DNA of 64,000 nt. Origin: Halomarina ordinaria. GTDB lineage: Archaea; Halobacteriota; Halobacteria; Halobacteriales; Haloarculaceae. The notes beneath the pieces are model-generated. The model did no database searches and was not told the DNA's origin. It saw nothing but the letters and a program-made list of their open reading frames with translations. How positions within the stretch are numbered: the first letter of the stretch is position 1; each line of letters starts with the position of its first letter. This document shows positions 29,266 to 32,505 of this stretch, piece after piece. The stretch spans positions 2,604,001-2,668,000 of the forward strand of contig NZ_JARRAH010000001.1 in assembly GCF_030553305.1 (NCBI RefSeq). The letters run 5' to 3'. The translations under genes were made by a program, and so were the position numbers.

Positions 29266-29408
29266 GGGTCGCCGACCACCGGACGGCGTCCGGTTCACGC
29301 CTTTTGACGACTGACTCCACCGCACGAATGTTTTCTTTCCGGCACATTCTTGCTAACGCTGAAGTTCGTTTTAACATCAAATATATTTGTAAAATATAAT
29401 ACGATAGA

Positions 29409-29414
29409 TTTATT
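29409..29414 (+). promoter_or_regulatory. TATA-like box of the 44-residue peptide gene
   Basis: TTTATT lies about 30 nt before the ATG at 29442, inside a markedly AT-rich stretch (29330-29440) that contrasts with the GC-rich surroundings. Confidence 0.5.
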
Positions 29415-29441: not shown

Positions 29442-29576
29442 ATGTCCGACAGCGCACTCACGCAGTACCTGGCTGAGAACCCGAAGATGACCGGCGCCGT
29501 GTTCACGCTCCTGTTGCTGCTCACGCAGGCGGGGAACGCTGCGGCGGCAGTGGGCCAGACCATCTCCGGTCCGTGA
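29442..29576 (+). CDS. 44-residue single-span membrane peptide (DUF7503-like)
   Basis: A short gene encoding MSDSALTQYLAENPKMTG followed by a hydrophobic stretch (AVFTLLLLLTQAGNAAAAVG) and the end QTISGP. Soluble N-terminus of about 16 residues, then one membrane span or an uncleaved signal. The AENPKMTG-F-LLLLLTQAG pattern matches a tiny haloarchaeal family that I recall as DUF7503, so it is conserved rather than random. It is tail-to-tail with the CHAT-like gene, 36 nt away, and has its own AT-rich promoter. Function unknown. Confidence 0.75.
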   Translation: MSDSALTQYLAENPKMTGAVFTLLLLLTQAGNAAAAVGQTISGP

Positions 29577-29612
29577 GTGCACTGAACGGTAATATTACAA
29601 CGTCGACTATCC

Positions 29613-31784
29613 CTATCTCCTCATCATATCGGAATCCAAACCACTGAGCTGGATTTCGTCACTCCAGTATATCGCCCCGTTCGTATATACTGGGAAATGT
29701 TCCTTTCCCAATATTTCTTCGACTTTGTCACGGCTGAGGACGAAGTCCCCTACGTGTCCTGAATTGAGGTAGAATTCGTTGTTCTGTTCGACGTTCGCCA
29801 TATACAGCGAGCCGAGACCGGACCGTGTAGTTGGATATCCGTAGACACTGAATACGTACTCTTCTCCCCCCTGTCGTTTCAGTTCCGTGTAAATCGGCGT
29901 CCCCCCTTTCCCCTCCGCCAGCACGACCTGGCCGTCGCCGACGACGGTGTACTGTCGGCCGGTGATGGTGTCCGTGCCGAGGATGTCGAGCGTGCTGGCG
30001 AGGGAGAACCCGGAGTTGAGCAGGCGCGCGAGCGTCCGGCCGACGCGGGTGGCCGGGTCGTTGCCGACGTTGACCAGCGTGACGACGCCGGCGATGGCCC
30101 CCGCGTGGACGAGGTGCATCCCCTGTGCGTAGGAGCGACAGGCGTTGAGGACGAACGCGCGCGTGCCGACGGTGTCGAGCGTGGCGGCGTCGAGCCACCC
30201 GTCCGAACACTGCATCCCGCGCTCGTCGACGTGGCCCACGTAGTGGACGAAGTCGCGCTCCTCGGCGAGGATGGCCCGGAGTTCCTCGCGGGTGAGGTCC
30301 TCGTACATCTCCACGTCGAAGGCGACGAACTCGCGGAGCCCGTAGAGGTCCTTCACGTCGGTCTCCGCGCGCATCTCCGGGGAGTTGCTGACGACGGCCA
30401 CCTCGATGGCGCCGCTCGGCTGGGCGTCGAGGCGGCGTTTGCACGCCTCGAGCGTCGGCTTCGACGCCCCCACCGGAATCCCCTCGCCGACCCAGGTCTG
30501 CTCGATGCTGTCGGTCGGGTCGAGCTGGATGATGGGCTGTTCGTCCTCGTCGTCGCCGATGGCGAGGTGCGCGCGGACCGCCTCCGCGCCGTCGTCCTCC
30601 CCGTCCGTCTCCTCCGCTCCGGGAAGCGGGCCGTCGACGCCGGAGCGACAGAACGCGTCGATGGCGGGGCTTCGCGGCTTCACCGCGGCGGTCCGGGGAC
30701 TCGGACAGCGGATCTCCGCGAGGTCGGCGGCGGCGAACGGGAGGTAGGCAACGTTCTCCGGGGCCGGGGCGACGTCGACCGTCTGCTTCCACGTCGGGAC
30801 GGCGGGTTCGACGGCGGCGTAGGGGACGTCCAGGTAGGCGTCCAGCCGCGTCGCGAGCGGCTGGTCGTACAGCGCGGCGAAGTCGAGGTCGAGGCGGTCG
30901 GCGACGACCGCCCGCTCGTGACACTGCACCGGGTAGAGCCCCTCGGTTCGGGTGATGCAGTCGAGCGTGAACACCTGCGCGAGCGTCCGGTGGACGGTCC
31001 GTTCGAAGGTCCGCTGGTCGTCCGGCGTCGCGGGGGCGACCAGCGGGTACTCGCGCTCGCCGACGAGGAGGCGCGGGGTCGCCCCCGGTCGGACGCTCGC
31101 GTCGAGGTAGTGCGCCAGCGAGGCGACCGGGTAGACGTAGCGCAGTTCGGGGGGCACCTCGATGACGACGTCGCCGTCGCGTCGTTCGAACCCCTCGGGC
31201 GCCTGGAAGCGCTCGCCGAGTTCGACGAGCGGCGGATGCCCCCGCAGGGTGGGCCAGGCGCGCTCGGGCGAGGTGGTCTTCAGCGACGACCCGAGACACG
31301 ACAGCGCCCGCATCACGTCGTGGGGGTCCTCGGTCGTGGTGACCGTCGCGGCCGGATACTCGTGGCGCGAGCGGACGCCGAGGCGGACGTGGTCGGTGTC
31401 GCCGACCGCGATGCGCCGCCCCACGTCGTCGATGGTGGTCTCGACGCTCCCCTCGACGGCCAGGTAGGTCTTCACCGCGAGCGAGACGACCTCGACGATG
31501 TAGCGCCCGGGCGGGACGCGCGCCTCGTTCCGGTTCGTCCCCTCGGCGACCGTCCGTCCCCGGTCGTCGCGAACGATGACGTTCACGTACTGGGGGATGC
31601 GTACCTCGGTGGTGTCGAGGCGGACGGCGGTGTCGACGGGGAAGGCGAACCCGTCGGTCGTCGTCGGTCGGGGCGTCACCGGCGACGGTGTCCGGAGCAC
31701 CGTCGTGACGCCCTGGATGTCGTCCGCGATTTCGACGCCGACGGGGTCGTCCGTGGCGGTGATGGACAGTGAACGTACGTTCAC
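29613..31784 (-). CDS. CHAT-domain protease-like protein
   Basis: A 723-residue protein. Residues 445-605 match the CHAT (caspase-like) fold. The catalytic His is in DFVHYVGHVDERG (H518) and the Cys in TRAFVLNACRSYAQG (C549), followed by AGAIAGVVTLVNVGNDPATR as in other CHAT proteins. The first 440 residues have no motif I recognise; residues 65-135 look like a beta-sandwich. The last 85-90 residues are encoded by clearly AT-richer DNA. The start is GTG at 31784, 4 nt after the upstream gene's stop, so the two are co-transcribed. No TPR repeats, signal peptide or membrane segment. Substrate unknown. Confidence 0.78.
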   Translation of the reverse strand: MNVRSLSITATDDPVGVEIADDIQGVTTVLRTPSPVTPRPTTTDGFAFPVDTAVRLDTTEVRIPQYVNVIVRDDRGRTVAEGTNRNEARVPPGRYIVEVVSLAVKTYLAVEGSVETTIDDVGRRIAVGDTDHVRLGVRSRHEYPAATVTTTEDPHDVMRALSCLGSSLKTTSPERAWPTLRGHPPLVELGERFQAPEGFERRDGDVVIEVPPELRYVYPVASLAHYLDASVRPGATPRLLVGEREYPLVAPATPDDQRTFERTVHRTLAQVFTLDCITRTEGLYPVQCHERAVVADRLDLDFAALYDQPLATRLDAYLDVPYAAVEPAVPTWKQTVDVAPAPENVAYLPFAAADLAEIRCPSPRTAAVKPRSPAIDAFCRSGVDGPLPGAEETDGEDDGAEAVRAHLAIGDDEDEQPIIQLDPTDSIEQTWVGEGIPVGASKPTLEACKRRLDAQPSGAIEVAVVSNSPEMRAETDVKDLYGLREFVAFDVEMYEDLTREELRAILAEERDFVHYVGHVDERGMQCSDGWLDAATLDTVGTRAFVLNACRSYAQGMHLVHAGAIAGVVTLVNVGNDPATRVGRTLARLLNSGFSLASTLDILGTDTITGRQYTVVGDGQVVLAEGKGGTPIYTELKRQGGEEYVFSVYGYPTTRSGLGSLYMANVEQNNEFYLNSGHVGDFVLSRDKVEEILGKEHFPVYTNGAIYWSDEIQLSGLDSDMMRR

Positions 31785-31788
31785 GGTC

Positions 31789-32505
31789 TCAGAGGAGCAT
31801 CCAGTCGGTGGTGCTGTCCGACTCCGTCAGGTGCCAGCGCTGTTCCGGCGGTCGGCCGTCGCGGTGTCTGAGGTCGATCCGGGCGTCGAACGCGGAGACG
31901 AGCGCCTCGGTCTCGGTGGCGTCCGGCGCGAGCGGGAGGTGGCAGTGGCCCATCCCGCCCGCGGTCCGGACGGCGCGCCCGAGAGACGTCACGAACCCGC
32001 GAGTCCGGTCGAGGCCGTACTCGTCGAGTAGCACCCCCAGGGTAAGGACCCCGACGCGGATGCGTCCCGGCGTTCGTTCGGTCGTCGACACCGCGTCGAC
32101 GAGTTCGCGTTCGAGCGCCCCGCGGAGTGCCACGAGGCCGTCGCCGGGGGCCGCCGGTGACGCCGGCCCCGTCGTCCACGACGGACCCGACGTCTCGGTT
32201 CCGACCGTGGAGCGGACCGTCGTCGAGAAGTCGAGCAGGGCGACGTCCTCGTCGTCCACGTCGATGTCTCCCGGGAGGTAGGTCTTCGCGCCGGCGAGGT
32301 CGGTGCTGACCAGCGCGAGGATACGTCGCCGTCGCTCGCGTGGCGACCCGAACAGGTTCCGCGTCTGGCGCGCGCGCACCGCGTCGCTCACCACGCCGGT
32401 CACGAGGAGGTGGCACCCCTCGCGTTTCAATTCGGCCAACTCGGCGGCGATGCCGTCCCCGTCGAGGTTCCCTCCGCGAGCGGTACCGGTGTCCATTCTT
32501 GTCAT
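31789..32505 (-). CDS. RecA/KaiC-like haloarchaeal protein (DUF7504-like), partner of the CHAT gene
   Basis: A 238-residue soluble protein. The N-terminus has LKREGCHLLVTGVVSDAVRA, then RRRRILALVSTD. The C-terminal half has RIRVGVLTLGVLLDEYGLDR, GRAVRTAGGMGHCHLPLAPD and FDARIDLRHRDGRPPEQRWH. The strand order resembles a degenerate RecA/KaiC domain, without a Walker A motif. I recall such proteins as DUF7504. First gene of a two-gene operon with the CHAT-like gene. Starts at 32505 and 32496 (MDTGTARGG) are both compatible with the promoter. Confidence 0.65.
   Translation of the reverse strand: MTRMDTGTARGGNLDGDGIAAELAELKREGCHLLVTGVVSDAVRARQTRNLFGSPRERRRRILALVSTDLAGAKTYLPGDIDVDDEDVALLDFSTTVRSTVGTETSGPSWTTGPASPAAPGDGLVALRGALERELVDAVSTTERTPGRIRVGVLTLGVLLDEYGLDRTRGFVTSLGRAVRTAGGMGHCHLPLAPDATETEALVSAFDARIDLRHRDGRPPEQRWHLTESDSTTDWMLL

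Follow-up and report, generated by a model that had tools for sequence, protein, structure and literature searches.

What does a haloarchaeal locus do in which a 44-residue peptide gene runs towards a CHAT protease-like gene that is itself preceded by a RecA-like gene? The locus lies in the window, that is, the whole 64,000-nucleotide stretch of Halomarina ordinaria DNA analysed here. The original prediction was a module in which the RecA-like partner senses, the CHAT protein cleaves, and the peptide is the substrate, pore former or brake. The layout is as it had described, including the coordinates, the positions of H518 and C549, and the gaps of 36 nt between the peptide gene and CHAT and of 4 nt between CHAT and the DUF7504 gene upstream of it (Table 1). 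Our comparison of sequences points to a protease-peptide partnership in salt-loving archaea. The best reading, to which we assign a probability of roughly 45%, is that the Gly-Pro (-GP) tail of the peptide meets the active site of the CHAT enzyme and is probably its dedicated substrate.

Table 1. Positions of the genes and key elements within the window.
Feature	Position	Strand	Description and evidence
DUF7503 peptide gene	29442..29576	+	44 aa, MSDSALTQYLAENPKMTGAVFTLLLLLTQAGNAAAAVGQTISGP; convergent to CHAT; PF24335, E 9.1e-20
Codons of the conserved C-terminal Gly-Pro	29568..29573	+	Peptide alignment and codon comparison
AT-rich promoter region of the peptide gene	29370..29414	+	TATA-like part at -38 to -28
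CHAT-type cysteine protease gene	29613..31784	-	723 aa; AF2 model and fold matches
Catalytic His518 codon	30231..30233	-	HYVGH; conservation in relatives
Catalytic Cys549 codon	30138..30140	-	LNACRS; conservation in relatives
DUF7504 gene	31789..32505	-	238 aa; KaiC/RecA-like fold; PF24336, E 2e-34

By sequence, the window CHAT protein scores below the Pfam threshold for PF12770 (11.9 bits against a cut-off of 24; E 0.15), and 11 of 29 orthologues match that family at E values up to 0.5 (best, 2e-5). It belongs to a divergent CHAT-like family outside formal PF12770 membership, and it is the fold and the catalytic residues, not the Pfam score, that place it. The AF2 model (pLDDT 79.5, from a 29-sequence alignment) has a β-rich N-terminal part (about residues 1–145), a middle part and a gingipain/separase-like module (about 330–660), in which the structural matches fall. 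The module has a caspase-like fold, and its best matches are gingipain RgpB (VIA Z 20.4), SAVED-CHAT (17.8), separase (17.6) and the Craspase TPR-CHAT (14.3). The His-Cys dyad is present in an HYxGH ... LNxCxS context; neither H518 nor C549 varies among the 30 closest orthologues sampled, and both are retained in 63 of 64 relatives in a wider set. The 723-residue protein is thus predicted from its model to be a protease of the CHAT/gingipain/separase fold. Its CHAT identity, sub-threshold by sequence, is upheld by the orthologue matches and the predicted fold, and the dyad has proved as conserved as the original prediction required. Searches of PDB chains gave no sequence match to the family, and PADLOC and NCBIfam searches gave none for the three proteins. 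No export signal is visible in CHAT.

The pairing of CHAT with DUF7503 extends far beyond this genome. Of 391 Halobacteria genomes, 366 (94%) carry a CHAT homologue, often in several copies, and 335 carry DUF7503, which is absent from all 20 listed CHAT-negative genomes (p = 6e-20). In 12 genomes examined whole, some of them with 4–6 copies, all 47 copies of DUF7503 are convergent to CHAT, two of them at larger distances (352 and 868 nt). The same arrangement is present in 69 of 80 named loci, a sample biased to close relatives, where the two stop codons mostly overlap or sit a few bases apart. Such frequencies far exceed what chance would give. DUF7503 is obligately paired with CHAT in cis, so that the co-occurrence on which the original prediction had staked its module is borne out. 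Its suggestion that the families are specific to haloarchaea held in part: CHAT is near-universal in Halobacteria, but relatives occur in one other family of the same phylum (4 genomes). Those distant relatives (L249–L252) have no small -GP peptide beside them; L249 and L250 retain the His and Cys, and L251 does not.

Copy number and composition vary. The window genome carries three CHAT genes, two of them with DUF7503; the third, outside the window (G000:C1:389122-390705), is shorter and has no peptide. The closest named locus is that of Halomarina halobia (76% identity). Several non-identical CHAT-peptide pairs can coexist in one genome. Genus g60 (L136–L149; G124, G174) carries about 7–9 CHAT genes in each genome, and several of these genes are accompanied by a divergent hydrophobic -GP peptide of their own that has a longer tail. 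A divergent CHAT subfamily also exists, mostly without a peptide. Two or three divergent CHAT genes stand in tandem without a peptide at L261 and L262, and at L210 and L227 two successive CHAT genes follow one DUF7504 gene, with no peptide found.

The window peptide is a clear DUF7503 member (70.4 bits against a cut-off of 27), and the family is marked by its ending. Gly-Pro closes 73 of 78 distinct DUF7503-family peptides, and the residue preceding it is nearly free; the tails at L082, L083 and L132 end in -TID or -SGI (-GI). We took all 198 CHAT ORFs whose downstream sequence was long enough; 145 of them have a convergent ORF ending in -GP within 260 nt, compared with 57 of 849 control long ORFs (p = 6e-84), which rules out a chance origin. 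Fifteen combinations of Gly and Pro codons are in use, and comparison of close pairs gave 90 synonymous changes (54 + 36) and no non-synonymous change at these positions; what selection maintains is therefore the end of the protein. We also considered whether -GP arises merely because the ORF overlaps the CHAT stop codon; this was rejected because -GP persists at gaps of at least 40 nt (26 loci) and its codons vary. Upstream, an AT-rich element at -28 to -38 of the peptide gene is strongly conserved (about 79–92% A+T over 145 loci) inside an AT-rich stretch extending to about -72. The peptide gene therefore most likely has its own transcript, in agreement with the promoter originally proposed for it.

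The remainder of the peptide is far less constant. Helix-type peptides, with K/R 1.9 on the N side versus 0.13 in the tail, are predicted to be N-in/C-out. An AxA motif is present in 126 of 127, and the tail after the hydrophobic core has a median length of 10 residues. The hydrophobic helix resembles a signal peptide or an anchor in the membrane. Tail residues -8 to -3 change freely, with Ala -10 and the Gly-Pro fixed, and the non-synonymous/synonymous ratio of the variable stretch gives no sign of diversifying selection. Peptides that end in -GP without a clear hydrophobic segment occur in Haloplanus, Halocatena (MFDTITTTTAKHPELTCDTDGHTIGGP), two Halomarina copies of borderline hydrophobicity, and an f3 clade, whose peptides end in STYGGP. 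A quick tree built from 194 CHATs has at least 6 changes between the labels hydrophobic and non-hydrophobic on branches with good support. The factor common to the peptides is the -GP tail, not the hydrophobic helix.

Haloplanus (genus g51) provides the most striking form. In 9 of its 12 genomes, the peptide retains its N-terminus, has no helix and carries 2–14 tandem 13-residue units (for example, YTADGNSGGISGP); three sister species retain the ordinary form. These arrays are found at L130, L131, L156–L159, L207, L269 (partly masked by N), L279 and L280, and no signal sequence was found in them. Among the units of L130, we counted 18 synonymous versus 3 amino-acid variants, where neutral expectation is 26% synonymous (p = 1e-8), and among those of L157, 11 versus 2 (p = 1e-5). 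This excess shows that each tail unit is maintained as protein; in the arrays tested, the units are under purifying selection at the protein level.

The peptide also follows the catalytic state of its neighbor. Both catalytic residues are present in all 145 GP-paired CHATs, and a -GP ORF adjoins none of 9 catalytically dead CHATs (p = 5e-6 overall and 0.02 within divergent subfamilies, both values ignoring phylogeny). The dead paralogues are L253–L257, L103, L251, L142 and one L261 copy without the Cys part. Among them, L253–L256 and L103 represent a CHAT subfamily of pseudo-proteases that has neither the catalytic His nor the Cys and no -GP peptide. An intact dyad without an adjoining -GP peptide occurs in 46 of 191 CHATs, mostly in divergent subfamilies. 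Candidate residues that distinguish peptide-paired from unpaired divergent copies are Q at 624, Y306, L at 288 and R484. The -GP tail, the Haloplanus arrays and the absence of the peptide from pseudo-proteases go beyond what had been predicted.

The third gene plays a lesser part. The window DUF7504 protein matches its family well (120 bits against a cut-off of 27), and its AF2 model (pLDDT 87) aligns with KaiC over 181 residues (Z 17.3). The Walker A motif (GxxxxGK[ST]) was found in 0 of 95 DUF7504 sequences, which give no sign of ATP use. A DUF7504 gene lies immediately upstream of CHAT in 47 of the 80 named loci and just past the peptide in 11 more, and near about 21 of 40 main-family loci in a more varied sample. 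Since it stands beside only roughly half to three quarters of the sampled loci, DUF7504 is an auxiliary KaiC-like protein. The RecA-like partner of the original prediction keeps its KaiC/RecA fold but loses the ATPase motif of that class, and the idea that it is the sensor at the core of the module does not hold for a gene that is missing at a quarter to half of loci. In our neighborhood analysis, no universal fourth partner was found, and only DUF7504 recurs.

We propose that a cytoplasmic CHAT protease acts on a dedicated small partner encoded convergently beside it. The C-terminal Gly-Pro tail of the partner would dock at the CHAT active site and would most likely be cut as a substrate, which would free the tail or switch the partner. 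The tail would be carried by a short hydrophobic helix in most species and by a soluble precursor of 2–14 tails in Haloplanus, and DUF7504, where present, would be an auxiliary KaiC-like protein without an ATP-binding motif. Contact with the active site is favored by the tandem units, by the variants that have only the tail and by the lack of a peptide beside dead enzymes; physical contact, cleavage, the cleavage site and the biological outcome are what we infer. Nothing follows the free C-terminal -GP, so that either the cut would fall upstream or the tail would be a product-like ligand. The main difficulty is topology, as the N-in/C-out prediction would place the tail outside, whereas CHAT has no visible export signal.

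The closest alternative is that the -GP peptide is an inhibitor that occupies the active site as a pseudo-substrate, in the manner of a securin or an antitoxin, until it is displaced, with the Haloplanus arrays as multi-site inhibitors. The pairing and the -GP facts fit this equally well, and the three observations that favor active-site contact are equally compatible with a substrate or an inhibitor. A free C-terminal -GP looks like a bound product, not a cleavable site, and the lack of a peptide beside pseudo-proteases makes sense because these would not need an inhibitor. In two genomes (G367 and G297), CHAT genes that are broken still adjoin an intact peptide, as would be expected of a harmless one. 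Securin, moreover, is a pseudo-substrate that holds separase, a relative of CHAT by fold. However, the intact CHATs with no peptide nearby indicate that an obligatory brake is not needed, and an antitoxin is not usually encoded convergently from a promoter of its own. We regard inhibition as somewhat unlikely.

Less probable still is a signaling role in which the hydrophobic part would be cleaved off as a signal peptide and the tail, processed by CHAT, would be secreted as the signal. The K/R-rich N-region, the hydrophobic core, the near-invariant AxA motif and a short tail that is variable save for -GP are what such a peptide would show. The tandem tails under selection make the Haloplanus precursors resemble multi-copy pheromone precursors, and the several non-identical pairs per genome would also suit a signal. 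Yet the Haloplanus arrays have no signal sequence, the codon-change ratio does not indicate diversifying selection, so that a plain spacer would also explain the variable stretch, and no receptor or exporter gene recurs beside the pair.

A membrane effector, in which CHAT releases or activates the peptide as a pore or membrane toxin in the manner of gasdermin, with DUF7504 as sensor, is improbable. Most peptides have one hydrophobic segment, and CHAT proteases are triggered executioners elsewhere (SAVED-CHAT, Craspase folds). Against this, a gasdermin-like system has a membrane-inserting partner in all members, while here several lineages lost the segment and retained the tail; the pore former offered in the original prediction is thus disfavored, on the peptide sequences, as a shared function. 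The CHAT neighbors in the window are housekeeping genes without PADLOC matches, as had been noted of the surroundings; no relatives of the CHAT protease were found in phage genomes; and near-universal presence is unlike most defense systems. Most improbable of all is a peptide without a target, whose Gly-Pro-stop stalls termination or whose transcript overlaps the CHAT 3′ end to regulate CHAT: -GP-stop does resemble slow-terminating C-termini and the stops of both genes often overlap or touch, but the next gene is CHAT in the opposite direction with nothing downstream in cis, -GP is retained at the wide gaps described above, and the internal -GP units of Haloplanus are preserved at the protein level.

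A caspase-like activity that is sensitive to caspase inhibitors and has no assigned gene has been reported from Haloferax volcanii, and archaeal genomes were said to be without clear caspase homologs (PMC3615174). Several Haloferax species carry this CHAT family, and H. volcanii matches both DUF7503 and DUF7504. The family is possibly the source of that activity and provides a concrete, knockout-ready candidate for it. That an enzyme of caspase/separase fold recognizes the C-terminal -GP of a tiny cis-encoded partner, with multi-copy precursors of the tail in Haloplanus, as an archaeal signaling pair, possibly the source of haloarchaeal caspase-like activity, is a tentative proposal. The pairing supplies a test substrate whose motif (-GP) is already defined, and in the Haloplanus arrays selection is seen to act on the tail itself. 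The family is present in 94% of the sampled genomes, yet most annotations of its parts read hypothetical or DUF, and the two small genes belong to families that are uncharacterized (DUF7503, PF24335; DUF7504, PF24336). No paper naming DUF7503 or DUF7504, and no prior description of the CHAT pairing, the -GP rule or the Haloplanus arrays, was found in our literature search; the module is real, near-universal in Halobacteria and without description in the literature searched.

Among known systems, the best structural match is gingipain (peptidase C25; residues 330–661, Z 20). Gingipains are secreted, whereas the haloarchaeal CHAT has no sequence match to PDB chains and no signal sequence was seen in it. 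The SAVED-CHAT protease filament shares the CHAT fold (Z 17.8) but has a different partner, and no SAVED domain was identified here in the model search. Craspase Csx29 (TPR-CHAT) of type III-E CRISPR is likewise a CHAT protease (fold Z about 14) with a dedicated, genetically linked partner, its substrate Csx30. In type III-E systems, TPR-CHAT is accompanied by Cas7-11 and CRISPR genes; here CRISPR genes are absent, a convergent 44-residue -GP peptide is the partner, and the pair is near-universal in haloarchaea, in a window without defense context. Separase (C50) and securin are similar in fold (Z 15–18) and, by analogy, in a small partner that is perhaps a substrate or pseudo-substrate; they differ in that the haloarchaeal enzyme has no sequence match to solved structures and its partner is a short -GP peptide. 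If the CHAT-peptide pair is a switch, it would represent an archaeal case beside separase-securin and Csx29-Csx30.
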